Shown here in pieces: positions 5,887 through 38,146 of a stretch of DNA of 38,530 nucleotides. This DNA is from a virus. The DNA lies in the IMG/VR virus record IMGVR_UViG_3300037258_000309, positions 1-38,530 of that record; one strand, 5' to 3'. The notes beneath the pieces were generated by a model. That model saw only the letters and a list, made by a program, of their open reading frames with translations, was not told the DNA's origin and ran no database searches. Made by a program: the position numbers and the translations under genes. How positions within the stretch are numbered: the first letter of the stretch is position 1; each line of letters begins with the position of its first letter.

Positions 5887-6739
5887 GGATTTTCTCCTTC
5901 TCAAATTTCAAGAACCGTTCACGTTGTGCCGCCCTCTCCGCTTTCGCCCGATCTTCCGGCGTGAGTCGCTGACGAGGGTCAGGCTCGCCCAAAGTCCGAA
6001 AACGAAAATATTTGCGAACCAGTGCGTCGAAATAATTTGGCGAGCCGATCACCCCCTCCTCGATCTCGGATTTTTTGAAAGCGAGCATTTCTCGCAAATC
6101 CTGAATTTCAATTTTGTCGGCCTTCCATTTTCGAACCATGTCCGTCGTCGTCAGTTGCCAAACTTTGAACGGCGCAAAACCTGCACTCAAAAATTCCGAG
6201 AAAAAATTTTCATCAACCGACACCGGGTCAAATGAAATTGGTAGTGAGGTAACGGTGTTTGTATACCCTGCTTCTTTAGTAACTTCTTCTCCTTCTGTTT
6301 TTAGTTCTAGTTCTTTAGGATATGTCCGAGCAATATCCGATTCTTCTTGGTCATTTGTCCGTTCAACATCCGGAGTGTGTCCGGACATTGTCCGGACTTT
6401 TCCGATACGACGAATCTTCTTTGAACTATATTCATCGCGGTATTTGAGAAGGTTAGGGCAGTCCAAAGTAAGATACTTACCGTCATACTTGTAGAAAATT
6501 AATTCCAATTCTTGGAAAAAATTTATTATCGCTTTAAATTTTTTTTCAGATATTCGGCAGGAATTTATCCAAATTCGTGAAAAATAGCGCGAAAATGTCT
6601 TATCGGAGTAGTCCATTTGGGAGGCAATTTTCTCTAAAATTATCCAGTAAACCCCATAGCCTTCAGCACCAAAAAGGTCGGTTACTTGGGAAAGTTTTTC
6701 GTCGATATGTGAGAGGGTAAGGTGTTTAAAATAACGCAT
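5873..6739 (-). CDS. Replication initiator, O-like, with Lin1244/DnaD-type N-terminus (288 aa)
   Basis: The N-terminal about 100 residues match the DUF4373/Lin1244-type winged-helix domain of phage replication proteins: YFKHLTLSHIDEKLSQ, LFGAEGYGVYWIILEKIA, then LTLDCPNLLKYRDEYSSKK. A polar linker (res 110-165) is encoded by DNA carrying 11-bp iterons, and a helical C-terminal domain follows (KVWQLTTTDMVRKW, REMLAFKKSEIEEG). The order initiator domain, iteron-coded linker, loader-interaction domain is that of lambda O. It follows a Cro-like and a CII-like gene and precedes the loader candidate, so the arm reads cro-cII-O-P. AAGGA precedes the start. Confidence 0.75.
   Translation of the reverse strand: MRYFKHLTLSHIDEKLSQVTDLFGAEGYGVYWIILEKIASQMDYSDKTFSRYFSRIWINSCRISEKKFKAIINFFQELELIFYKYDGKYLTLDCPNLLKYRDEYSSKKIRRIGKVRTMSGHTPDVERTNDQEESDIARTYPKELELKTEGEEVTKEAGYTNTVTSLPISFDPVSVDENFFSEFLSAGFAPFKVWQLTTTDMVRKWKADKIEIQDLREMLAFKKSEIEEGVIGSPNYFDALVRKYFRFRTLGEPDPRQRLTPEDRAKAERAAQRERFLKFEKEKIHEAK
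6323..6405. other. Putative replication origin: seven TCCG iterons at 11-bp period
   Basis: TCCG occurs with its T at 6325, 6336, 6358, 6369, 6380, 6391 and 6401. Six lie exactly on an 11-base grid (one step, 6347, is degenerate) and the seventh is one base short. On the coding (minus) strand the unit is CGGACA plus five variable bases. Eleven is not a multiple of three, so the protein sequence cannot explain the period. The adjoining 6250-6320 stretch is purine-rich on the minus strand and AT-rich, as beside the lambda ori iterons. The initiator encoded here is the expected ligand. Confidence 0.75.
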
Positions 6740-6767
6740 AAAAAGTCCTTAAAGCAGTCGTCAAAAG

Positions 6768-7220
6768 TTAGCTAATTTCTTCAAGAGAGGAGGGGAGGGT
6801 GTCGTCATCCGCGATGCGTTTAGCATCGCGAATAACATCTAAAGCCGCGTTATATTTGTTCTTGATGCGCTCGTTTTCTTCTCTGAGTTTTAGTAAAGCG
6901 GCTTCTTTTTGCTTGATCTGTTCTTCAAGTGAGGCGGGCTTATCTTGCATGTCTTTGCCGCAATGATGGGCCAGCCAGTAGAGGGGGATGTAGTTACCGC
7001 AGAGATCAAATAAGGTAATTAGCTTATCAACATCAAAGGTAGCATGGCCGTTTTTAATCCGTGACCATTGGCCCTGGTCAATCGCAAGTCCATAGCTAAC
7101 CTGTTTATCACTTAGTCCTTTTAAACGTATGCTATAAAGGATAGCCTCACGTAAAGATGGTATCGACTCGATTGTTTCCAACATTCTTCTATCCTCATCA
7201 GATAGTGGCCTCGTCGACAT
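6768..7220 (-). CDS. CII-type phage transcriptional regulator (150 aa)
   Basis: Residues 18-85 form a DNA-binding domain: LREAILYSIRLKGLSDKQVSYGLAIDQGQWSRIKNG, then DKLITLFDLCGNYIPLYWLAHHCG. This arrangement is known from CII-like and related XRE-type regulators of phages and prophages. A coiled coil (res 95-130, EEQIKQKEAALLKLREE) probably serves oligomerisation. Its place between the Cro-like gene and the O-like gene is the lambda cII position. GGGAGG lies 8 bases before the ATG. Predicted to act as an activator or delayed-early regulator; the target is not identified. Confidence 0.7.
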   Translation of the reverse strand: MSTRPLSDEDRRMLETIESIPSLREAILYSIRLKGLSDKQVSYGLAIDQGQWSRIKNGHATFDVDKLITLFDLCGNYIPLYWLAHHCGKDMQDKPASLEEQIKQKEAALLKLREENERIKNKYNAALDVIRDAKRIADDDTLPSSLEEIS

Positions 7221-7254
7221 TTTAATAGCCTCCCTAGCACAGTCAGGTTAAGTT

Positions 7255-7279
7255 TAGAAGTCAAATCTTTTGACTTCTA
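7255..7279. promoter_or_regulatory. Perfect 25-bp palindrome (TAGAAGTCAAA arms)
   Basis: Arms TAGAAGTCAAA and TTTGACTTCTA flank a 3-base centre. It lies between the Cro-like gene (stop 7297) and the CII-like gene (start 7220). The minus-strand right arm contains TTGACT, which could be a -35 box, but no good -10 follows. There is no T tract in either direction, so an operator or an attenuating stem is more likely than an intrinsic terminator. Confidence 0.65.
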
Positions 7280-7296
7280 CTATTACTTATATTCCC

Positions 7297-7524
7297 TTAA
7301 ATTTCCTTAGTATTAAATTGCTCGCGAGGGTAAACGTCTTCTAACGAGCAATGTATGTCGAGGCTCTTTCCTATATCGATCAGCTTATAGGCAAGAGCTG
7401 GTTTAGGGTAACGGCTGCCATATTCATAGTTGGATATCGCTCCACTCGTAACACCTAACTCGTCTGCTAGCCGCTGACGAGACCACTGGGTTTTACATTT
7501 GATCTTTCGTAATAAAGTAATCAT
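7297..7524 (-). CDS. Cro-like helix-turn-helix regulator (75 aa)
   Basis: This 75-residue HTH_3 protein begins MITLLRKIKCKTQWSRQRLA, continues with DELGVTSGAISNYEYGSRYP (helices 2-3 of the fold), and ends CSLEDVYPREQF, a short tail typical of Cro-sized regulators. It is the first gene of the leftward early arm and is divergent from a second HTH gene. The ATG lies only 8 bases after the -10 box and has no Shine-Dalgarno sequence, so the mRNA may be leaderless. It probably binds the TAAAC/GTTTA operators. Which of the two divergent genes is the lysogeny repressor is inferred from position. Confidence 0.8.
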   Translation of the reverse strand: MITLLRKIKCKTQWSRQRLADELGVTSGAISNYEYGSRYPKPALAYKLIDIGKSLDIHCSLEDVYPREQFNTKEI

Positions 7525-7532
7525 AAGGGCGA

Positions 7533-7561
7533 AATCTAAACAAAGTGTTTAAGGCTGTCAA
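7533..7561 (-). promoter_or_regulatory. Leftward early promoter (PR-like)
   Basis: On the minus strand a consensus TTGACA (7561-7556) and TAGATT (7538-7533) are 17 bases apart. The start codon at 7524 lies 8 bases beyond the -10, so transcription should begin at or next to the ATG. The spacer contains the perfect operator at 7537-7551. It drives the cro-cII-O-P-like arm. Confidence 0.75.
7537..7551. promoter_or_regulatory. Class I operator TAAACA-AAG-TGTTTA
   Basis: This perfect 6-3-6 palindrome lies inside the leftward early promoter and upstream of the rightward HTH gene. The same 15 bp (16 with the next A) recurs at 33931-33945, and related 8-3-8 palindromes lie at 7948 and 33878. It is the expected binding site of one or both flanking HTH proteins. 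Confidence 0.75.
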
Positions 7562-7582
7562 GATAAAGAATAGGAGAGTTTT

Positions 7583-7795
7583 ATGACTATAGGTGAACGT
7601 TTAAGACAGTGCCGTCTTAATAAAGGATTCAAACATCAAATGGACTTAGCCTTGCGTTGTGGATGGAAAAATTCAGCGCGTATCTGTAATTATGAAAAGG
7701 ATGTGCGAGTGCCAAGACCACGTGATGCCGAAATCCTCGCCTGTGTCTTGAAAACTACACCTTCTTATCTTATTTTCGGAGTCACGTCCGAATAA
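7583..7795 (+). CDS. CI-like repressor, DNA-binding domain only (70 aa)
   Basis: The protein begins MTIGERLRQCRLNKGFKHQM and continues NYEKDVRVPRPRDAEILACV and TTPSYLIFG, the standard N-terminal domain of CI-type repressors (YERG-x-RxP, then PxWLLFG). There is no C-terminal S24/LexA-type peptidase domain: the frame stops after 70 residues and an intrinsic terminator follows 22 bases later. So if it is the lysogeny repressor it cannot respond to RecA in the usual way. TAGGAGAG precedes the ATG. The rightward promoter between the two operator-linked genes is not clear by eye. Confidence 0.75.
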   Translation: MTIGERLRQCRLNKGFKHQMDLALRCGWKNSARICNYEKDVRVPRPRDAEILACVLKTTPSYLIFGVTSE

Positions 7796-7816
7796 TTTAC
7801 CTAAGCAGTGAAAGGG

Positions 7817-7843
7817 AAAGGGCGCACGATGCGCCCTTTTTTT
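7817..7843 (+). terminator. Rho-independent terminator after the CI-like gene
   Basis: A perfect 10-bp stem AAAGGGCGCA / TGCGCCCTTT with loop CGA is followed by a run of seven T (7837-7843). It ends the one-gene repressor transcript and insulates the 7940 promoter from it. Confidence 0.9.
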
Positions 7844-7893
7844 CGTCAAAAATCCAGTATTTTAATTGATAAAATTGCTCGTTAGTTGCCCTC

Positions 7894-7935
7894 TCTCAAA
7901 TATCTCTCATAAATATCTCAAATATCTCTCATAAA
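7894..7935. repeat. Two 20-bp tandem repeats upstream of the rightward early promoter
   Basis: TCTCAAATATCTCTCATAAA occurs at 7894-7913 and 7916-7935, a 22-bp period (two helical turns). The second copy ends 4 bases before the -35 box of the 7940 promoter. The position suits an activator site or an UP-like element; the unit does not resemble the operators. Confidence 0.75.
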
Positions 7936-7939
7936 AGAG

Positions 7940-7968
7940 TTGACAGAAATAAACGTTTCGTTTATTCT
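7940..7968 (+). promoter_or_regulatory. Rightward early promoter (PL-like)
   Basis: Consensus TTGACA (7940-7945), a 17-base spacer and TATTCT (7963-7968) lie 45 bases upstream of the gene at 8013. The spacer contains a perfect 19-bp operator that overlaps the -10. It probably drives the whole 8.0-18.3 kb operon. Confidence 0.75.
7948..7966. promoter_or_regulatory. Class I operator AATAAACG-TTT-CGTTTATT
   Basis: A perfect 8-3-8 palindrome lies between the -35 and -10 boxes of the rightward early promoter. It shares the TAAAC-N5-GTTTA core with the site at 7537-7551 and differs at one base from that at 33878-33896. It is the counterpart of lambda OL. Confidence 0.75.
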
Positions 7969-8012
7969 TCGTTTTGTACGGTGACTGACCGGATTAATGA
8001 GGAGATAGGGAA

Positions 8013-8420
8013 ATGAGTAATGAATACCAAAGTTACGAACGAACCATTGATGATATCAGCAAAGTTTTAACAAGAGAAGATAGAATAAAACTAATAACAC
8101 AACAAGCCAAATTCCTAGCAGGGCTTCTAATATTAGAAGATCATTATAAGAGAAAAGAATCCTGCGACTATGAAGCGATCATAAACCGTGATGAGCAAGG
8201 GCAACTTATGATGTATGTAGGAAGTTACTTGACAGCCGATAATGTAGAAACAAAAAGAATTATAGGCGAAATGATTCTAGCCACTATTTCTAAGAATGCA
8301 TCCCTGTATTACACAAGAGATATTGTAGATGCTGTAGAAGACAGACATATTGAGTTTCAAGAAAGTTTAAGCCATAGGGAGGACGTAGAGTATGAAAATT
8401 ATCGAGACGCGCAAGCATAA
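8013..8420 (+). CDS. Unknown protein, first gene of the rightward early operon (135 aa)
   Basis: This is a 135-residue, acidic, largely helical protein. GAGGAGATAGGG precedes the ATG. It occupies the position of lambda N, but it lacks the arginine-rich N-terminal motif of N-type antiterminators (begins MSNEYQSYERTIDDISKV), so that role is not supported. It overlaps the next gene by 29 bases. No family recognised. Confidence 0.65.
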   Translation: MSNEYQSYERTIDDISKVLTREDRIKLITQQAKFLAGLLILEDHYKRKESCDYEAIINRDEQGQLMMYVGSYLTADNVETKRIIGEMILATISKNASLYYTRDIVDAVEDRHIEFQESLSHREDVEYENYRDAQA

Positions 8421-8568
8421 AGCATTTGCAAATATCAGCATCGGTACACATGTTGAGTTTTGCAAAAGACGCGGAAAAGTAGTGTCGTATTTTGGACGTA
8501 GGGCGGTGCAATTTATGAATGCTGTACCCTTGTTTGTCAAAGATACTGTTGTGTTTGAAGTTCAATAG
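8392..8568 (+). CDS. Unknown small basic protein (58 aa)
   Basis: This is a 58-residue frame starting MKIIETRKHKAFANISIGTH, with AGGGAGGACGTAGAGT upstream. It is basic in the middle (FCKRRGKVVSYFGRR) and beta-rich at the end (PLFVKDTVVFEVQ), as in a small beta barrel. It begins within the 3' end of the 8013 gene. No family recognised. Confidence 0.6.
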   Translation: MKIIETRKHKAFANISIGTHVEFCKRRGKVVSYFGRRAVQFMNAVPLFVKDTVVFEVQ

Positions 8569-12106: not shown

Positions 12107-12625
12107 ATGACGACACTAGACCCAAGCCAAATGATGATCGTATACGATGGGGTTGCTTATCCCTGTGTTAAGATTCCTGATGTTGCAAACGTCAATACTA
12201 AGCAAGTATTAAGTAATGGCGACATGCTCATCATTAGCCGTATATCACGCAAAGACTTACCATTTGATGCCTATGATAATGTAAAGGAATCACAACAAAA
12301 GCTAGATAAGGCTATTACATCACTTTCCAGTAAACGCCAGCGACTCACACCTGAAGAACGTGAAAAAATAGCTGACATGTATGTCAAACGTGAAGCGTCG
12401 ACCAAAGAAATAGCAAAAATGTTTCACACTACTCGCGCAAATGTTTATGCGATAGTTAATCTATTGGGTAAAAGCAGAAAAAAAATGAAAGGGTCACGCA
12501 ATGTAAAAGATAATATCCGCAAAGAAGTACGAGCCGCATATAAGTCAAAACAGGCAACTGTTGTAGAACTCGCTAAGAAATATAATGTTACACCTTCCCG
12601 CATTTATCAATACCTTAGAACTTAA
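12107..12625 (+). CDS. Regulator with two resolvase-type HTH motifs (172 aa)
   Basis: The first 65 residues form a separate domain (MTTLDPSQMMIVYDGVAYP). Two HTH units follow: LTPEEREKIADMYVKREAST with KEIAKMFHTTRANVYAIV, then KEVRAAYKSKQATVVELAKK with YNVTPSRIYQYL, joined by a basic linker. GAGGA lies before ATG 12107, although the frame opens at 12092. Two HTHs in tandem suggest binding to repeated or asymmetric DNA sites. The HTH type is shared with 11566-11817, so duplication is likely. Confidence 0.7.
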   Translation: MTTLDPSQMMIVYDGVAYPCVKIPDVANVNTKQVLSNGDMLIISRISRKDLPFDAYDNVKESQQKLDKAITSLSSKRQRLTPEEREKIADMYVKREASTKEIAKMFHTTRANVYAIVNLLGKSRKKMKGSRNVKDNIRKEVRAAYKSKQATVVELAKKYNVTPSRIYQYLRT

Positions 12626-12639
12626 CAGGAGATATTTTT

Positions 12640-12900
12640 ATGGCACGATCAGCTAGTAATATTAGTAACTTTAATCAATTGCGTGAAAGTCTCGGCGAGA
12701 CATTAGATGGCTTATTGAGCGGTAAAGTCGATGTTGATACCGCCAATGCAGTATCTCGCGTATCGGATTCAATCACACAAACCATTAACGCTGAATTGAA
12801 TTACACTGCAAAAACTGGTGCAGTAACAGTGATTGATTTTTTAGAACAGCGTGAAATGGCTAAGAAGGATAAGAAAAAAGCACTTGAGAAGTTAAGGTAA
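12640..12900 (+). CDS. Unknown helical protein (86 aa)
   Basis: This 86-residue protein begins MARSASNISNFNQLRESLGE, with CAGGAGATATTTTT before the start. It contains an amphipathic segment (VDTANAVSRVSDSITQTINAEL) and a lysine-rich C-terminus (KKDKKKALEKLR). This pattern occurs in small phage proteins of unknown function. No motif allows a function. Confidence 0.6.
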   Translation: MARSASNISNFNQLRESLGETLDGLLSGKVDVDTANAVSRVSDSITQTINAELNYTAKTGAVTVIDFLEQREMAKKDKKKALEKLR

Positions 12901-12903
12901 TTT

Positions 12904-13104
12904 ATGAGAAATCATTTAACTTCTTTAATGAGACAAGAGTTGCAATGGGCTATAGTGAATTATGGGAGTGCTCGAGGTATTTGTGATTATTCTCCCTCAA
13001 CAACGGCACATCAGACTGTCCTTGATAAGTGGCGCGTCATTGAGAAGCAGCTCGATATAATTTTTGCTGAATGTAACTTAGTTGATGAAGAAATATATGC
13101 CTAA
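12904..13104 (+). CDS. Unknown small protein (66 aa)
   Basis: This is a 66-residue protein beginning MRNHLTSLMRQELQWAIVNY. It is 3 bases from the previous stop with only AAGGT as a ribosome-binding site, so reinitiation is likely. The following 68 bases hold no convincing gene. No family recognised. Confidence 0.55.
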   Translation: MRNHLTSLMRQELQWAIVNYGSARGICDYSPSTTAHQTVLDKWRVIEKQLDIIFAECNLVDEEIYA

Positions 13105-15334: not shown

Positions 15335-15366
15335 CTATTTCCAGTAAAAAAGAATACTGGAAATAG
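15335..15366 (+). other. Intercistronic hairpin CTATTTCCAGTA / TACTGGAAATAG
   Basis: A perfect 12-bp inverted repeat around an 8-base A-rich loop lies just after the 15118 gene. It is followed by GCG, not T, so it is not a typical terminator. It is the third such element in this operon. Confidence 0.65.
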
Positions 15367-25393: not shown

Positions 25394-27048
25394 TGGCTGT
25401 AATTCCCTAATTTGGATGCGAGAAAGGCTTGACGTAAATATGGAATTGAGTTGTAAACTTTTTGTCCAACGTGGGTTTGCGCTAATGCTTGACTAGTAGA
25501 AGGTCTACTTTTAAATAGCATAGGTGCCAACTGGTGGCCCAAGATACTTCCGATAGCGCCCCCTGCTTCTTCTCCACCGCCGAGAAGTGAACCCAGCACA
25601 CCACCACCGACGGTTGAAACAACGGTTTTAGCTAAGTTCTGACGATTAACTGCATTTTGTAATTGACCGAATTGTGCTTGACGTTCTGGAGATAAAAACG
25701 AACCTAATCCTTGTTCATCTAATTTTGCTTTAGCGGCTAGTAATGATTCTGGGGTTGCCTGTGCACTTTGCTTTCCGAGCTGAGAATACAAAATACTATC
25801 GGATGCAGAAGGCGGCAAATTACTCAACAATTGCTGAGTTTGAGAAGTCGGATTTTTAAATAAAGTGGATAAGTTACCTGGATTATCATCTGTCGGAACT
25901 TTACCTTTTGCTACGATATTGCCTGGTGGACCATATAAAGGCGTAGCCATATTTTTAAATACATCATTTTCAGTCCAGGGAACGACATTATTCTTCCAGT
26001 TGGCTTGGGCTGCTTGATAATCTTGAGCAAGCCCCTGATTACCTTGTGCGCCAAGATAAGTTCCCATATCACTACGTAAGGCGGACTGCGCCTGTTGTAA
26101 AGAATCTCTTTCATTAGAAGATATAACATCAGATGTATTACCGTTATCGATTGCACGCATACGCGCACCCATCTGAGATTGAAGCAGATGAGCATTTTGT
26201 AAAGTGGGATTATTCATAAAATTGTTGTGCAATGAACTTACTTTACTATTTGAAAGTGCAGAATTTAAAACATTTTGAGGAAGCGCATTATTTCCAGAGA
26301 TTTGACCTCCAGTGAGATATGCCACCCCTTTTTTTGGAGTAAAATTCGCATATTGTGGTGCTTGACCGGGAGAATAAATACTTTCGTTGGGGACTTGATC
26401 GAATACATCCTGGAATTGTTTTTGTCCTTGATCATATGCATCATTTGCAGTTTTAAATACGGTTTGTGCGAAATTTTTGCTGTTATCTTCTAAGGAATTT
26501 CCTTGACTGATTCCATTAACGATTTGATTTTTTATATCATTAGCGCCGAAATATTTATCGGCAAGACCGCTAACGCCTTGTATAGCGTAAGGTAATGCTT
26601 CGCTAAGTGTTCCAAAACCTAATCCTGCACCTAATCCTGCTAATCTATTATTAGTGTCTTGTGATGCACCATATAGACCTGAATAAGCGGTACGACCGAC
26701 TTGTTGACCTAATTTAGAATTTGCTAGATAACTTGCAGCATCACCTAAATAAGGCAGTCCTTCAGCAGCTAAACCAATACCGCGCAATCCTTCACCACCG
26801 GCAACGAATCCCCCAATATTTCCAGCAATATTTCCTGCTTTGGAGGCAAGATCAGGTTGTTGCTGAAATGTTGGAATATTCACACCAGGCAGCATATCAA
26901 CTGAATTTATAATGTTATTACCAAAACCTTTGGCAGCGGCTGTCGCGAATCTTTGATCAAATGGCGGTTGTGATGGTGCATTATTATTACTGGTTGCAAG
27001 ATTTTGATTAAACTGTTGAATGTCATCAGGTGTCATTTCATAGGTCAT
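25390..27048 (-). CDS. Ejection protein, P22 gp16 position (552 aa)
   Basis: Internal virion proteins of P22-like phages enter the cell with the DNA. This 552-residue protein is third of three such genes, the place of P22 gp16. It has Gly/Ala-rich hydrophobic segments in the N-terminal third (AGNIAGNIGGFVAGGEGL, AGLGAGLGFGTLSEALPY), a helical Gln/Asn-rich middle and a further glycine-zipper segment near residue 480 (VSTVGGGVLGSLLGGG). Such segments could insert in membranes. No peptidase or transglycosylase motif is seen. The assignment is by order and composition. Confidence 0.65.
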   Translation of the reverse strand: MTYEMTPDDIQQFNQNLATSNNNAPSQPPFDQRFATAAAKGFGNNIINSVDMLPGVNIPTFQQQPDLASKAGNIAGNIGGFVAGGEGLRGIGLAAEGLPYLGDAASYLANSKLGQQVGRTAYSGLYGASQDTNNRLAGLGAGLGFGTLSEALPYAIQGVSGLADKYFGANDIKNQIVNGISQGNSLEDNSKNFAQTVFKTANDAYDQGQKQFQDVFDQVPNESIYSPGQAPQYANFTPKKGVAYLTGGQISGNNALPQNVLNSALSNSKVSSLHNNFMNNPTLQNAHLLQSQMGARMRAIDNGNTSDVISSNERDSLQQAQSALRSDMGTYLGAQGNQGLAQDYQAAQANWKNNVVPWTENDVFKNMATPLYGPPGNIVAKGKVPTDDNPGNLSTLFKNPTSQTQQLLSNLPPSASDSILYSQLGKQSAQATPESLLAAKAKLDEQGLGSFLSPERQAQFGQLQNAVNRQNLAKTVVSTVGGGVLGSLLGGGEEAGGAIGSILGHQLAPMLFKSRPSTSQALAQTHVGQKVYNSIPYLRQAFLASKLGNYSQ

Positions 27049-28496: not shown

Positions 28497-29222
28497 TTAA
28501 AATAATCCAACGAGTGATGCGATTCCGCCAATCCCTGCACCCAATGCTCCTAATCCGCCTTGCATACTTTGGTTTCTATTAATAGCGCCGCTATAAGCAA
28601 GCCCTGCTTGATTAGTGAGAGCGTTACCATAATTTCCAGCATATTGATTGGCGGCTTGAGCACCTGCGCCATACATGTTGTTAGCTGCTTGCGCCCCGAT
28701 GCCATATTGATTTTGTAAACCTTGATAACCTTGACCATATAAATTTTGAGCATTATTGATATATTGCCAATAATCCTGATTTGCTAACTGATTGACGGTT
28801 CCTGCAATATTTTGTTGTTCGGCCTGAGAACCTGCCATTCCACCGGCGGCCGCTGCGTTATTGGCAGCCTCTCCCGCTTGACCTACCTGCCAGTTATAAC
28901 CAGGTGATGATTGATAAGTAGAACCCCACTGATTAAATAATCCGGTTGGATTATTAATCATGTTAGAAGTTGCATTTTGCAAACCTCCTTGTGCCCATTG
29001 TCCGCCTTGAAGATATGGATTTAGAGATTGCTGTGCCTGTTGACCCATCCAAGGCGAATAAATACCTTGTAATGAATTAGTTAATTGATTGAGGTAAGGG
29101 CTAGATGCATTAGCAGGATTTTGTGCGAATAAACTACCGACTCCACCTGCGATAGAACCTAGCGCACCGGTTGCCATTCCATAAGGATTATAATTACCAC
29201 CTAGCCCATATTGCTGTTGCAT
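28497..29222 (-). CDS. Ejection protein, P22 gp7/gp14 type (241 aa)
   Basis: This 241-residue Gly/Gln/Asn-rich protein has the pattern of phage DNA-transfer proteins: SPGYNWQVGQAGEAANNAAA, AAGGMAGSQAEQQ, then YWQYINNAQNLYGQGYQGL. The C-terminal 30 residues form a glycine zipper (GGLGALGAGIGGIASLVGLF), probably membrane-active. It is first of the three ejection-type genes, after the tail hub genes. TAAGGTAATTT precedes the ATG. Confidence 0.7.
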   Translation of the reverse strand: MQQQYGLGGNYNPYGMATGALGSIAGGVGSLFAQNPANASSPYLNQLTNSLQGIYSPWMGQQAQQSLNPYLQGGQWAQGGLQNATSNMINNPTGLFNQWGSTYQSSPGYNWQVGQAGEAANNAAAAGGMAGSQAEQQNIAGTVNQLANQDYWQYINNAQNLYGQGYQGLQNQYGIGAQAANNMYGAGAQAANQYAGNYGNALTNQAGLAYSGAINRNQSMQGGLGALGAGIGGIASLVGLF

Positions 29223-29230
29223 AAATTACC

Positions 29231-29500
29231 TTAACTTGTAGTAATCGTCTTAAATGTTCCGGCTTGATTTGCCATGAACAAACCAGTATCTGTGTTGTAA
29301 ATAATGTTTCCTGCGCTTTGTTGTGTGTTAAGTGTTGCTATATTTGCTGTGTTTTGTGGTGGCGCGGCTAAACCTTCAGGAGAGACTGTGTTAGAAATGT
29401 ATTGCGTCATTTGCTGAAAATAGTTATGCCAGGCTGGATGTGGCGTGCCATCTTTTTGTGCAATCGGAGTTGTAGGAGCAGGTAACATTGGAATAATCAT
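29231..29500 (-). CDS. Small virion-type protein, P22 gene 26 position (89 aa)
   Basis: Motif HPAWHNYFQQMTQYISNTVS and the ending TDTGLFMANQAGTFKTITTS are typical of a small phage structural protein seen in many genomes next to hub genes. P22 encodes its tail needle gp26 here, but this protein is much shorter and lacks the long coiled coil, so it is not a full needle. Start and previous stop overlap. Structural role inferred. Confidence 0.6.
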   Translation of the reverse strand: MIIPMLPAPTTPIAQKDGTPHPAWHNYFQQMTQYISNTVSPEGLAAPPQNTANIATLNTQQSAGNIIYNTDTGLFMANQAGTFKTITTS

Positions 29501-33042: not shown

Positions 33043-33753
33043 CTACCGAATACCGCGCACTCTACCTTTGTAATGCTGTGCCCATTCTGAAGCTGTCCGC
33101 TCTGATGGCCGCTTGCCAATACCAGCACCACTAGAGGGTTTGACATTGCCGAACGGATCAGGCGGAAGATTTGCGGAAGACTCAGCGTTCTGATTTGCTT
33201 TAATAGAATCAGAAAGCTTTTTAATTTCCCCTGGTATTAAATGAGGCGGAATACTGTTAAGCATTCCAAGCTTCATCTTATTTTTGCCAAGGTCATAAAG
33301 TACGTCTGCTGTGTTATCTACCGTGTTTGCATGCCAGACGAGCGGAAGCATGTGCTCCAGCCCTAAGGATTTAATAGTTTCATCAAAATCGGGATAACGA
33401 TTAGATGCCTTTGTTTCTGCAATCTTCTGATCAACTTGTGAGAGTGTTTGTCTCGCAAGATGTTCTTCGTTTTGCTTCTGCATGGCTTCTTGTGCAGTTC
33501 TATGGGTATTTTGGGCTTCTTCTCTGGCTATTCTTCGGTAATCATCGGCAGACATTCCGCCAATACTTCCCGCACCTAGAGCTTCTTTAGTGCCCTTCTC
33601 ATGCCCACGACTGAACGCATCGCGTACGATGTCGTTAATTCGATCTTGGGGTAGCGTCTTTTCAACTGGAGCCTGCGTAGCTTGCTGCTGCTGCATAGGA
33701 GCCTGTGATTGCGGCTGACCCTGAGCTATTCCTTCTGGATTTGATTCGTTCAT
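33043..33753 (-). CDS. Scaffolding protein, P22 gp8-like (236 aa)
   Basis: A helical, charged protein of 236 residues between portal and coat genes. The N-terminus is Gln/Pro-rich and disordered (QSQAPMQQQQATQ), the centre helical (DDYRRIAREEAQNTHRTAQE, TLSQVDQKIAETKASNRYPD), and the C-terminus basic (SEWAQHYKGRVRGIR), like the coat-binding end of P22 scaffold. The open frame begins at 33852, but the first 33 codons look non-coding; ATG 33753 has only a weak AGGG. P22 gp8 has 303 residues, so this one is shorter. Confidence 0.8.
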   Translation of the reverse strand: MNESNPEGIAQGQPQSQAPMQQQQATQAPVEKTLPQDRINDIVRDAFSRGHEKGTKEALGAGSIGGMSADDYRRIAREEAQNTHRTAQEAMQKQNEEHLARQTLSQVDQKIAETKASNRYPDFDETIKSLGLEHMLPLVWHANTVDNTADVLYDLGKNKMKLGMLNSIPPHLIPGEIKKLSDSIKANQNAESSANLPPDPFGNVKPSSGAGIGKRPSERTASEWAQHYKGRVRGIR

Positions 33754-33877
33754 CAAGTTAAACCCTGTACTGACTGTTAACCCCGTCACGGTAGATACCC
33801 ATGTGAGACACCACACGTAGTGGCCATTTAACCCTTGGCTAGGTCTGACCATTAAATAGTAATTTTTAATATATGTA

Positions 33878-33896
33878 AATACACGAAACGTTTATT
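33878..33896. promoter_or_regulatory. Class I operator AATACACG-AAA-CGTTTATT in the late region
   Basis: It is an 8-3-8 inverted repeat with a single mismatch (C at 33882). It differs from the reverse complement of the 7948-7966 operator only at that base. It lies between the scaffold start and the rightward gene at 34012, far from the immunity region. A repressor of the early arms should bind here too. Confidence 0.65.
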
Positions 33897-33930
33897 TCTA
33901 TTAAAAATTGATATAAATGTTCCACGTGGA

Positions 33931-33945
33931 TAAACAAAGTGTTTA
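33931..33945. promoter_or_regulatory. Class I operator TAAACA-AAG-TGTTTA in the late region
   Basis: This is identical over 16 bases to the operator at 7537-7552. It is preceded directly by a second palindrome, TCCACGTGGA (33921-33930), and followed by TTGACT (33951-33956), a possible -35 box for the gene at 34012, though no convincing -10 follows. Confidence 0.7.
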
Positions 33946-34011
33946 ATTTCTTGACTATGTAATTGAATGAGAGAAAACTTTCTTTTCGTTTAGGGTGACA
34001 AGGAGATAGTC

Positions 34012-34191
34012 ATGGAAGTATCAGTCAAAGGCCGAGAAGTTAATCCTATGCTCAAGTATAAGGACGTAAGGATACTTCTCAATTTATCCTATATAGAGTT
34101 CATTAACTTACGCTCAATGGCGCGTTACAGCATAGAGCGTGGGTATCAAGCAGGCATAGCCGCAAAGATCGCAGAATCATGTGTGCCATGA
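34012..34191 (+). CDS. Isolated rightward gene with operators, unknown (59 aa)
   Basis: This 59-codon frame starts MEVSVKGREVNPMLKYKDVR behind AAGGAGATAGTC, one of the best ribosome-binding sites in the genome. It is the only rightward gene in the 20-kb leftward late region. Residues 20-55 are helical (LLNLSYIEFINLRSMARYSI) and slightly basic. Two class I operators lie upstream. By analogy with P22 immI, which sits among tail genes and encodes Arc, Mnt and antirepressor, a regulator controlled by the repressor is possible; the sequence itself does not identify it. Confidence 0.65.
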   Translation: MEVSVKGREVNPMLKYKDVRILLNLSYIEFINLRSMARYSIERGYQAGIAAKIAESCVP

Positions 34192-34202: not shown

Positions 34203-34237
34203 AAAAAAAAGCCCCTAGTGATGAGGTCACTAAGGGC
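34203..34237 (-). terminator. Leftward Rho-independent terminator between packaging and head genes
   Basis: Read on the minus strand, GCCCTTAGTGA and TCACTAGGGGC form an 11-bp stem (one G-T pair) with loop CCTCA, followed by eight T (34210-34203). It lies after the portal and 63-residue genes, so it should end or reduce the terminase/portal transcript before scaffold and coat. Confidence 0.85.
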
Positions 34238-34322: not shown

Positions 34323-34514
34323 TCAATCATTTTTTGATGAGGATTCATCCCACGTCAGGCACATATCGCCAATTTCTCCTCCATCATCCGTCGATTTGTA
34401 ATCAAAATCTAATCGCATCTTAAGCCAAACACCTTTTGGTATCTCTGTGTGAGACTCCATTATAATTTGTATGCAAACCGCTAAATCCTTTGCAAGTTCA
34501 GAATCAAGACTCAC
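34323..34514 (-). CDS. Small protein next to portal, GTG start (63 aa)
   Basis: GTG 34514 follows AAGGAG by 7 bases and lies within the last codons of the portal gene (11-base overlap). The 63 residues are acidic (DFDYKSTDDGGEIGDMCLTW). It is the last gene before the leftward terminator. No family recognised; a minor head or assembly role would fit its place. Confidence 0.6.
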   Translation of the reverse strand: MSLDSELAKDLAVCIQIIMESHTEIPKGVWLKMRLDFDYKSTDDGGEIGDMCLTWDESSSKND

Positions 34515-36606
34515 TAGACTTCTCCTTCATTGGTTTTTCCTCAGCTTTGTTTTGGGATTGTATAATATCACTCGCTTTATGTTGATCGCCCTGCACTCTA
34601 TCCAAATGTTTGTGGATTGAACCATCAACTGCTTTCTCTTTCTCAACAGCAATCTTTGCTAAATCAACTTGTCTGTCTTGCTGAGCACCTACAAAGTCCA
34701 TCGTGTTTTTAATACTCTCTTGTTTTAATCGTGCTGCATCCATCTGCATTTGACCCTGATGCTGTTGGTTACGCATTGCTAAGTCCTGCATCTTTAAAGT
34801 GAGAGGATTAGGTTGTTGCTGACCCGATGCTTCTTGCTGCTGTTGCTTTTGGAGCATTTCTTGCGCCAATTGTTTTAACTGATCTGATCCTCTGAACTCT
34901 AGGTTATCGATCAATATCGGCAATCCAGTAGTATTAATCAGTTGCGCAAAAGACTGGAATTGTTGCGACAACATACCCATTTGCATTACTGCTCGGTTTT
35001 TTTGTACCTCGAAATTCATGCCCGCTTCGACTTCCACATTTAAACTATGGGGTGAATAATTCATCTGTGGAGTTTTACCACCACCAAATCCATTAATAGG
35101 CACATGAGTGGTATTACGCATCTTATCAAGAATTGGAATGGTTCTTGGCGTTGTATAAACCTTGGGAAATAAATCAATATAGATTTTGGCTACCTGATTC
35201 CATGCCAACATAAAATTAACAATATAAGGCATTCCAGTAGAGTTAGATTGCGTCATAGCTTCAATGATTGCCGCCCCACTAATATCGTTATCATTAACGC
35301 CTAATTGCGTATTAAATGAGCCTAAGATGTTCTGCATGACCTGATCAGATTGCATAAAAGTTGCTAATACTTCTGGAGGCATCCCAGGCCGCTGTACAGG
35401 TTGAGGAGGTGGTATGGGTGTCAATCCATCTTCTTGAAAGGCGTTATAAATCAAGTTGCTTGGCTTTTGGATATTTGTGTATGCATCCGTATATTGTTCG
35501 GGTATCCCTTCGAGAGGCGCAATCCACTTTTGCTGCACCATTCCTTCCAATTCATTAGCCAATGTCTGTCCAGCAATATTCTTAAGCTTTTGGGTATCCA
35601 TCGCATGATAGTGATAAGGTCGAGTCATTTGTTTCATATCTGAAGATTCACCATCTTCACGAATATGCTGACTGTTACCATCGGTAAAAATAAGTGGTAA
35701 ATATGTCCAATTAGTATCGTTATAAGTCAATATTTGCGTATTAGTGAATTCATAACGGCAAATAGTGGTGATCTTTGTTTTACGACGGGAAATGATTTTA
35801 GGCTCTTGTTCGATACGACTCATGGCCCATTCTTTCTTAGCTTTGTTATAGTCTGATTCCAACATGGAAACATTATTTGCAAGATAGACTAAGTTTTTAC
35901 TGGAAGTTACTTTGTGATAAAAGATACAAACTAATATAATTTTTGTATCCGCTAATTGATAAGCCCACTGGTAATCACCAATCGTTGTCATATTTCCTGA
36001 CGGAACCGCACCATTTGGGTATCGTTCTTTGTAAGAATCTTCAGTTAGCGGCACCATCTCAAAACAGAATTCACCATCACATTTTGTCACTTCTTGTGCA
36101 GTTGGATCAAACCCACATAAGGTCGGATCAAACTTACGCTCAATCACAATTCTCTGGTTAAATGTATAAGGCGATTCATAATCTGGAGAGACTTGCAGAA
36201 CACCATATCCCCCGCTTAACTGATCAGAATAAACATTATATTCCGTACCTGCTTTACGAGTTTGATACATTTCATGGAGCAAATGCCCTTCTAATATTTC
36301 TGCCGCCTGCGGGTCAACATATCCACTATCGGGTGACTGACTCACCGTGAATGATGGCTCCTGCTTTGAAAACTCACCACGTAGCCGTGAGATGTACGAT
36401 TCAATGGTATTAAACTCAAACGCAGGCTTTTGGATCGTTGCTAAATCCTCGCGCATTTCTTGATTTAAGGTAGTTTTAAATACGAACTTTCTATAAGTAT
36501 GCCAGCGCTCAATGTTAGCTTGAAACCACTGACGCCATGATTTCGTTTTAGCGATAAGCTCTGAGAGAGTGTGTGGGTACTTTAAGTCTTGTGTTTCCAG
36601 TGCCAT
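34504..36606 (-). CDS. Portal protein, P22 gp1-like (700 aa)
   Basis: The 700-residue size is that of P22 portal (725). Family features include an N-terminal helical part (TKSWRQWFQANIERWHTYRK), FNTIESYISRLRGEFSKQEP and GYGVLQVSPDYESPYTFNQR, and a Gln-rich C-terminal helical barrel (EMLQKQQQQEASGQQQPNP). The dodecameric ring is the DNA entrance and the site of terminase and gp4 binding. AAGGA selects ATG 36606 (MALETQDLKY) although the frame opens at 36651. It overlaps the end of the large terminase gene by 59 bases. Confidence 0.9.
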   Translation of the reverse strand: MALETQDLKYPHTLSELIAKTKSWRQWFQANIERWHTYRKFVFKTTLNQEMREDLATIQKPAFEFNTIESYISRLRGEFSKQEPSFTVSQSPDSGYVDPQAAEILEGHLLHEMYQTRKAGTEYNVYSDQLSGGYGVLQVSPDYESPYTFNQRIVIERKFDPTLCGFDPTAQEVTKCDGEFCFEMVPLTEDSYKERYPNGAVPSGNMTTIGDYQWAYQLADTKIILVCIFYHKVTSSKNLVYLANNVSMLESDYNKAKKEWAMSRIEQEPKIISRRKTKITTICRYEFTNTQILTYNDTNWTYLPLIFTDGNSQHIREDGESSDMKQMTRPYHYHAMDTQKLKNIAGQTLANELEGMVQQKWIAPLEGIPEQYTDAYTNIQKPSNLIYNAFQEDGLTPIPPPQPVQRPGMPPEVLATFMQSDQVMQNILGSFNTQLGVNDNDISGAAIIEAMTQSNSTGMPYIVNFMLAWNQVAKIYIDLFPKVYTTPRTIPILDKMRNTTHVPINGFGGGKTPQMNYSPHSLNVEVEAGMNFEVQKNRAVMQMGMLSQQFQSFAQLINTTGLPILIDNLEFRGSDQLKQLAQEMLQKQQQQEASGQQQPNPLTLKMQDLAMRNQQHQGQMQMDAARLKQESIKNTMDFVGAQQDRQVDLAKIAVEKEKAVDGSIHKHLDRVQGDQHKASDIIQSQNKAEEKPMKEKSSES

Positions 36607-38146
36607 AGAGACGTTTCCTTGCATTACTATCACGTTGATAATTTGATGCAATCGTCGTAATTATTTTGTCTGTTCTGGCTTTAGTCTTGGTCATGTAAGG
36701 GATAACTTTATCTATAAATGCAAGCTTGACCGCATCGGCAAACGTGTCGGCGATATCGTCATAACGATGCGATTGGTTAGCAGTGATTTTAGACATGTGA
36801 TTAAGTACAAGATCGTGGTGTTTTGCATTTCTAGTTATTGATACAAGGCGAGATGCTAACGCCGGTTGCGCATCTAAAAAGCGCTCAGTTTTATTGCCTG
36901 AGCTTCTATTGCGCTCAGTCTCTCTAATTTGAAGGCCACGCAGCTTATCTTTAATGACCGACACTAAGGTGACGCCAGTAGATTTCTTCTCAATAGCTGC
37001 GATCTGTGGCTGTTTGGGATAGCGTAAACAAGCGTAGTAAAAGTTAGTAAACTCTTGTTCTAAATCTTTAGGCTCGACCCAAAGTTCCCAACAATCTATC
37101 CAATGCAAACCAATGCTTTCGGTGTTCATCCCATCTTCAGAGATGTTATAGATACCCCAGAAGCTAAATACCGTGGCGTCGTTATAAGACTTTTCAGTTT
37201 CGGCAGTATCAGCCGTGATAAATGTTGCTAACATTTCTGGGTCTTGGTCTAAACGAACAAACCATTCAGGCTTATACAATGCACCACCTGCAGGGATTGC
37301 GTTTTGTTGCATTTGAGCAGCAAATACATACGGCATTTTTTCTTTCATTAATAGCAACTGCTCAACCGTATGTTTGTGCGGGCACAATGCGTTCCCAGCA
37401 GCATCTAATGCATCAAGTACACGAAATTCCCACGGTCTGCCGTCATAGTGATCGCGTAGATGACGTGATAAATCATCTTCATGTGTTACCTGCGCTATGT
37501 AAAAGAATGGCGTGGCGGGATCATTACGGCGGCTAAATAAGGTGTTTAGATACCAGTCATTAGTTGTTGCTCTAATTTTTTCGCTTGTCGCATCAGCTGG
37601 TTTAATAGAGTCGTCGATAATTGCGCAACCACCAAAACGTGTGGCGCCTTGAATTCCTGCTCCACGCCCTGTAATTGTTCCCCCAATACCTGCAGCGTAG
37701 ACAGAACCTCCCTGAGTAGTTTCAAAATTATCCTTTGCCTTTGTCTCGTTAGATATGCGTGCATCGAAAAGCTCCTGGTATTCAGGTAAGGTCATGATCT
37801 TTCTGACAGTGTGCGTATGAAACGCTGCCAATTCTTGTGAATATGAAACATAGATGAAGTTACAATCTGGATAACGAGCCATAGCCCATGCAATGAAATG
37901 TATGCACATTTCAGACTTGCCATAACGTGGCGGACATAGAATACCGATATCACTCACCCTATGATAGAAAGCGTCTGTGAGTGTGTTTGCAATGGTTATA
38001 TAGTGAGATTCACGCCCGATTGGTTGTGATGTAATCCAGTCGCGCCGAGTGCGCAATTTATAAAAAACGCGCGTAAATAAATAGAAGGATGATAATAACT
38101 CAACCCTGAATTTATCGTCACGCGCGAATTCGTGACTTATACTCAA
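36548..38146 (-). CDS. terL: Terminase large subunit
   Basis: This 532-residue packaging motor has an ATPase domain with Walker A-type PPRYGKSE (res 72-79) and Walker B CAIIDD (174-179), and a C-terminal RNase H-fold nuclease with FITADT (Asp313), AAIEKKSTG (Glu386) and RYDDIADTFADA (Asp463/464, Asp467). It belongs to the Terminase_6 / TIGR01630-like group. The start is TTG 38146, with AGAGGTA 6 bases upstream inside the end of the preceding gene. It cuts concatemeric DNA and translocates it into the prohead through the portal encoded next. Confidence 0.92.
   Translation of the reverse strand: MSISHEFARDDKFRVELLSSFYLFTRVFYKLRTRRDWITSQPIGRESHYITIANTLTDAFYHRVSDIGILCPPRYGKSEMCIHFIAWAMARYPDCNFIYVSYSQELAAFHTHTVRKIMTLPEYQELFDARISNETKAKDNFETTQGGSVYAAGIGGTITGRGAGIQGATRFGGCAIIDDSIKPADATSEKIRATTNDWYLNTLFSRRNDPATPFFYIAQVTHEDDLSRHLRDHYDGRPWEFRVLDALDAAGNALCPHKHTVEQLLLMKEKMPYVFAAQMQQNAIPAGGALYKPEWFVRLDQDPEMLATFITADTAETEKSYNDATVFSFWGIYNISEDGMNTESIGLHWIDCWELWVEPKDLEQEFTNFYYACLRYPKQPQIAAIEKKSTGVTLVSVIKDKLRGLQIRETERNRSSGNKTERFLDAQPALASRLVSITRNAKHHDLVLNHMSKITANQSHRYDDIADTFADAVKLAFIDKVIPYMTKTKARTDKIITTIASNYQRDSNARKRLYGTGNTRLKVPTHSLRAYR

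Follow-up and report, generated by a model that had tools for sequence, protein, structure and literature searches.

Copies of the early-switch operators at the portal–scaffold junction of a P22-type podovirus may place the head operon under direct immunity control

The late region of a P22-type podovirus is divided, between its portal and scaffold genes, into a portal operon and a scaffold–capsid–tail operon. Read from right to left, this junction comprises the portal gene, a 63-residue gene, a leftward intrinsic terminator, the end and then the start of a rightward open reading frame (ORF) of 59 codons, two palindromes (operators 2 and 1), a candidate leftward promoter, a leader and the scaffold gene (Table 1). 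The window, that is the whole stretch of DNA that was analysed, is a complete viral record of 38530 bp with a terminal repeat of 127 bp, in which portal (phrog_156), terminase and scaffold genes were detected. A search for a close cultured relative found none, and a family search with the 63-residue gene gave no hit. Neither the phage nor its relatives have a match to PF00589 or PF00239 (tyrosine integrase, serine resolvase), and lysogeny of the phage is therefore putative only. The relatives occur in MAGs of mixed, probably misbinned origin, one of which is a Legionella bin.

Table 1. Features of the portal–scaffold junction and of the early switch region (positions in the window).
Feature	Position	Strand	Remarks
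HTH protein 1, 75 aa	7297..7524	-	HTH_3, E 5e-7, above cut-off
Early leftward promoter (PL), TTGACA-17-TAGATT	7533..7561	-	Operator 7537-7551 between -35 and -10
HTH protein 2, 70 aa, candidate prophage repressor	7583..7795	+	phrog_4 transcriptional repressor, E 1e-7
Early rightward promoter (PR), TTGACA-17-TATTCT	7940..7968	+	Operator 7950-7964 between -35 and -10
Scaffold gene, first of the head–tail operon	33043..33753	-	phrog_8865, E 1e-9
Leader RNA core, probable small pseudoknot	33772..33792	-	Just before scaffold ribosome-binding site
Candidate head-operon promoter, TTTACA-17-TTTAAT	33851..33879	-	8.0 bits, rank 108 of 385018
Late operator 1, TACACGAAACGTTTA	33880..33894		Extended palindrome 33878-33896
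parS-like/DnaA-box-like TGTTCCACGTGGATAA	33918..33933		14/16 to TGTTNCACGTGNAACA; overlaps operator 2
Late operator 2, TAAACAAAGTGTTTA	33931..33945		33931-33946 identical to PL operator 7537-7552 over 16/16 nt
Candidate weak promoter of 59-codon ORF, TTGACT-17-AAAACT	33951..33979	+	7.1 bits, rank 218
59-codon ORF	34012..34191	+	Ribosome-binding site AAGGAG at 34000-34005
Intrinsic terminator of leftward portal transcript	34211..34237	-	11-bp stem, T8
63-residue gene, final one ahead of terminator	34323..34514	-	Ribosome-binding site; coding score 0.175
Portal gene	34504..36651	-	phrog_156, E 1e-54

The pattern TAAACN5GTTTA occurs exactly three times in the whole 38.5-kb genome, at the two early operators and at late operator 2, where 0.12 occurrences per genome are expected from order-3 Markov controls. 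Late operator 1 is a further copy with one mismatch, which brings the total to four palindromic sites at three loci, three of them exact and one near-exact. Over 21 of 22 nt, operator 1 matches the PR operator (7945-7966) in inverted orientation, with an exact 17-nt match at about 33883-33899, and the centres of the two late operators lie 51 bp apart. When the terminal repeat is left aside, repeats of at least 16 nt are found at only four places in the genome, two of which are these early–late operator pairs. Judged by these counts, the operator copies at the late junction exceed chance. An earlier note on this DNA had proposed a third repressor-controlled locus here, and its operators are well supported by the sequence: the palindromes and their matches to the early sites are in place, and a genome-wide check of the exact pattern returned three occurrences rather than many. 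It is the proposed target, the 59-residue gene, that did not stand up equally well, as discussed below.

By gene order, the early region has the layout of a lambda-like switch. HTH protein 1 is the first gene of the leftward early operon and occupies a Cro-like position; the leftward promoter reads this gene and also a more distal one that encodes a Lin1244_N domain. The gene for HTH protein 2, which also has a DicA/RstR-like match below the cut-off, is divergent from it. By sigma70 score, the rightward and leftward early promoters rank 3 and 5, respectively, among the 385018 hexamer pairs of the genome. The late sites are placed differently: rather than inside strong promoters, they lie beside weak ones, in intergenic DNA between two divergent units. 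A perfect 20-bp tandem direct repeat (TCTCAAATATCTCTCATAAA, 7894-7935) immediately upstream of the early rightward promoter is a possible further regulator site. Elsewhere in the window, an 18-nt perfect inverted repeat, AAGTTAAGGTAATTTATG, is present at 12889-12906 and 29220-29237, between an early gene boundary and a late one.

The terminator at 34237-34211 is the only match when both strands of the entire genome are scanned for terminators under stringent settings. Because it ends the portal transcript, the scaffold-to-lysozyme operon of about 15 kb should need its own promoter at the junction; unless antitermination occurs, transcripts are split here and this operon would start between 34210 and 33753. 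It is important to point out that, with antitermination, the portal transcript could extend beyond the terminator, which counts against an own-promoter model. Within the junction, TTTACA-17-TTTAAT is the best leftward match outside the ORF, on a scale where promoter scores run high in AT-rich intergenic DNA. Its -35 element lies at -126 from the scaffold start and is abutted or overlapped by operator 1; the scaffold start at 33753 is backed by alignment with the relative L013 and by the leader (a longer frame reaches 33852). The best leftward match overall (34082-34055, 10.1 bits) is located inside the ORF, some 330 bp from the scaffold gene.

A comparison of 30 loci with capsid relatives, plus the loci L202 and L205, places this promoter in a family context. 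In 22 of 29 loci (the phage and its relatives), the highest-scoring promoter match in the direction of the scaffold gene lies 120-175 bp ahead of that gene's start, and the scores of these matches are high for the respective genomes (KS p 6e-6 against windows of the same width), bearing in mind that a few loci are near-duplicates and that AT-rich intergenic DNA inflates scores. Scored in this manner, a predicted sigma70-type promoter ahead of the scaffold gene is a conserved trait of the family. The TTTACA promoter of the phage fits the family zone of -120 to -175, which corresponds to 33873-33928 in the window and contains operator 1, while the 10.1-bit match falls outside it. In two relatives, G016 (12545-12583) and G023 (7743-7769), the head-promoter block also precedes the terminase genes, as would be anticipated for a late promoter; it is a candidate late-promoter consensus for that subgroup.

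The leader between promoter and scaffold gene is conserved as well. A 21-nt element, ACCGTGACGGGGTTAATAGTC, precedes the scaffold ribosome-binding site in about 25 family members, and an alignment of 25 sequences supports a UGAC/GUCA helix with a crossing CC/GG helix: 94.7% of the cells are paired, compared with at most 51% in slid controls, and the covariation score is 0.373 against 0.178 +/- 0.023 for shuffled alignments. The element has no Rfam match. Synthesis of the P22 scaffold protein is known to be controlled post-transcriptionally by the protein itself. A translational operator in the leader is therefore plausible, and the conserved RNA is a candidate for it on the strength of this analogy.

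To the right of the operators, the 59-codon ORF is probably a real gene. The good ribosome-binding site that had been noted for it is confirmed, with AAGGAG 6 nt ahead of the ATG, and the coding score of 0.046 bits per codon compares with 0.037 and 0.084 for the small HTH genes and exceeds that of 83% of spurious ORFs. No other rightward ORF between 18.4 and 38.5 kb has both a good ribosome-binding site and a coding score that is not negative. The earlier description of the operators as lying in front of the only rightward gene is thus correct as to the gene but gives half the picture, since the sites lie between divergent units. The product is predicted to form a single long helix (pLDDT 80, model from one sequence). 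Neither IMG/VR patterns nor INPHARED yielded a confident homologue, and family profile searches gave nothing above cut-off; with these results, the role as antirepressor, lysogeny gene or exclusion factor that it had offered is unsupported. The stretch RGYQAGIA near the C terminus matches E. coli RMF (E 1.6 in PDB, 0.024 in Pfam, 0.033 in NCBIfam). An identity as RMF was rejected: the scores are 15.2 bits against a Pfam cut-off of 27.9 and 14.1 against 40 for NCBIfam, and only about 20 residues are matched, with the second half of RMF absent, yet RMF is consistently the best sequence hit. A likeness of the ORF's leader to the leader at 8013 was likewise discarded (shuffle p 0.19).

These properties bear on the possibility that the operators serve the rightward gene, as a moron- or immI-like unit, and that the head genes are read from elsewhere. 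A moron is a gene that has a promoter and a terminator of its own and is inserted in a conserved gene order; of the gene seen here, the rightward promoter candidate is weak, the terminator scan gave no rightward match, and L013, the nearest relative by junction, lacks it. In favour of this possibility, the gene has its ribosome-binding site and moderate coding score, and operator 2 sits 5 bp upstream of TTGACT. The junction of several relatives holds additional genes, in part on the reverse strand and with a promoter or terminator of their own; the reverse-strand examples include genes for proteins of 115 aa (L022, with a 15-bit promoter), 104 aa (L019), 103 aa (L016) and 66 aa with an HTH_17 domain (L037), as well as genes in L026. 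In P22-like phages, a variable region within the late operon is for the most part not transcribed as part of the late message (PMC8022706). Against this stand the missing homologue, a function signal that does not go beyond the weak RMF-like stretch, the weakness of the promoter, the closer position of operator 1 to the leftward promoter and the orientation of the terminator, which implies a leftward start. We regard this explanation as unlikely. Rather, terminator isolation, the family-conserved promoter and the conserved leader RNA make the head operon the more probable main target, and the 59-codon gene is probably a secondary part of the operator arrangement.

The variability of the junction extends beyond its small genes. 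In L026, NAD-salvage-type genes (NAMPT/NAPRTase and a NUDIX protein) are inserted on the minus strand between portal and scaffold (6001-8423); L036, L039 and L040 have their portal gene in the orientation opposite to that of the capsid gene. Of 28 loci, 8 have inverted repeats with arms of at least 8 nt ahead of the scaffold gene, where 1.8 are expected. A 30-bp palindrome with identical arms, TATTTCCAGTA-N8-TACTGGAAATA, lies ahead of the scaffold gene in L013 (2242), L031 (7002) and L205 (2363); L202 has it as well (8214), at a distance of about 480 bp from a small HTH-like ORF, and so does the window (15336-15365). Shared by distant family members, it is probably a regulator site. Exact DnaA boxes (TTATNCACA) are enriched in the 330 bp before the scaffold gene, with 9 in 5 loci against 0.65 expected, and no other permutation of the motif that was tried equals this. 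Exact DnaA boxes upstream of the scaffold gene, at the head-operon promoter, were noted in L016, L019, L022, L035, L036 and L202, frequently as arrays with a spacing of 11-12 bp; at the promoter of L202, four box-like sites follow one another at this distance. In G007, exact boxes precede the portal gene (25465-25507). The pattern suggests either that host DnaA may regulate late genes of these phages or that an origin may be located there. Overall, the head promoter looks regulated in much of the family, by sites that differ.

Sites of the chromosomal parS type are also found, mostly in the portal–scaffold junction and in phages without an obvious ParB gene: exact in G019 (13242) and L008 (7862), with one mismatch in G021 (2844) and L040 (2450), and with two mismatches in the window. 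Control of the junction could accordingly be linked to the host through parS- or DnaA-type sites, coupling it to partition or replication, with the operators secondary. The presence of TGTTCCACGTGGATAA between the operators and the strong enrichment of exact DnaA boxes in relatives are in keeping with this idea, as are the parS sites of G019, L008, G021 and L040. Both matches in the window are, however, imperfect and singly not significant (0.25 occurrences of the TGTTCCACGTGGATAA match are expected per genome), and a profile search found the ParB_N gene absent from the phage, so that this explanation appears highly improbable.

The arrangement favoured here, with a probability of roughly 0.56, is that the head-operon promoter, and with it the divergent 59-codon gene, is under the direct control of the immunity repressor, its Cro-like partner or both. 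The segment 33853-34011 would form a divergent control region within the late genes, with the scaffold–capsid–tail promoter facing leftward and that of the 59-codon gene facing rightward. Operator 1 would overlie the head promoter at its upstream end and operator 2 would lie directly upstream of the rightward promoter, at a spacing of about five helical turns. While the early-region HTH repressor is present, the late sites would be occupied along with the early operators and both the head operon and the small gene would be off; once the repressor is lost, or the Cro-like partner is in place, the head operon would fire. The sequences show the duplicated operators, the terminator, the order of the genes, the promoter zone of the family and the leader RNA; we infer which protein binds, that the effect is repression rather than activation, and that the TTTACA promoter is used. 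The location of both early copies inside top-ranked promoters next to HTH genes argues for this arrangement, as do the excess of operator copies over chance, the terminator, the promoter zone of the family, the recurrence of the promoter block in G016 and G023, the leader RNA, and the inverted repeats and the 30-bp palindrome found ahead of the scaffold gene in relatives. Against it count the weakness of the TTTACA promoter, the higher-scoring leftward match inside the ORF, the putative status of lysogeny and the fact that among the other complete relatives no second clear case with the same operators at both the head junction and the early region was found, in a comparison where the signal is noisy.

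A further point against it is the position of the operators, near -43 and -94 relative to the predicted leftward start, which would suit an activator too. Lambda CI bound at OR2 activates PRM, and by that model the Cro-like HTH protein at the late operators could activate the head operon and at the same time shut off the early promoters. The centre of operator 1 at about -43, the weakness of the late promoters and the location of the late sites outside the gap between -35 and -10 are compatible with such an early-to-late activation. The start sites are, however, predicted ones, HTH protein 1 is not known as an activator, and an overlap with the -35 element more commonly means repression; activation is thus distinctly less credible, and we consider it improbable. 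The late sites could also be relics, decaying and functionless copies of the early promoter region moved by recombination. Operator 1 lies inside a 27-nt inverted copy of PR (24/27) whose -35/-10 elements are no promoter (-1.9 bits compared with 11.9), and the copy was rejected as a working promoter on this score. Decay would hardly have left the cores intact while the flanking hexamers changed, and two different operators were copied, at a spacing close to an integral number of helical turns; a relic is therefore very unlikely.

The family comparison, together with the immunity control favoured above, leads to a more tentative proposal, which we hold possible but short of probable. In this family, the scaffold–capsid promoter may act as a decision point of its own, at which each lineage has installed a different regulator: the phage's own immunity operators in the window, the 30-bp palindrome in L013, L031 and L205, and host DnaA-box arrays in L016, L019, L022, L035, L036 and L202. 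Expression of the virion genes would then be set directly by the immunity state or by host replication, and not solely via a late antiterminator.

Several known systems offer partial parallels. The earlier note had likened the junction to immI of P22, and the likeness holds for placement, a unit under its own control inside the late region (PMC8022706), but not for content. In P22, immI comprises mnt, arc and ant and lies between genes 16 and 9; the unit described here lies between portal and scaffold, has no second repressor, arc or antirepressor gene, and contains a single 59-codon gene with no family hit above cut-off. Its operators, moreover, are those of the primary immunity switch. What is shared is separate control inside the late region, seen at the sequence level as a terminator and a divergent layout. 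With OL/OR of lambda, the early region shares two divergent early promoters that have operators within or next to them and are accompanied by small HTH genes. The repressor of lambda-type phages keeps virion genes silent by indirect means only; to our knowledge, CI operators are absent at the late structural promoter of lambda, whose late genes are silenced via Q, while in the phage described here operators are also found at a candidate late head promoter.

Operators distant from the switch have precedents. The C1 protein of P1 is a primary repressor with 22 operators dispersed over the genome (PMC8546580). As with C1, the same operator sequence is found at the switch and at a distant operon (16/16 and 21/22 nt at 33.9 kb), but the P1 sites are asymmetric 17-mers and many, as opposed to four palindromes at three loci. 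Stoperators in L5 and Bxb1 are repressor sites distant from the switch that can silence transcription in other parts of the genome (PMC6550527). They number 20-30, are asymmetric, point mostly in one direction and lie mostly away from promoters, in contrast with the late palindromes described here, which sit at a single divergent promoter region. The literature searched, the coverage of which was limited, contained no case of a P22-type phage with palindromic immunity operators at its scaffold promoter. If immunity operators do act on a head-gene promoter, they would hold virion production under stricter control and link the early–late transition to immunity in a simple way. The family comparison makes the question testable, as the same promoter position is combined, from one relative to another, with different regulator sites, including host DnaA boxes. 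Dispersed operators are already known from P1 and L5, and the arrangement in this phage differs from both.
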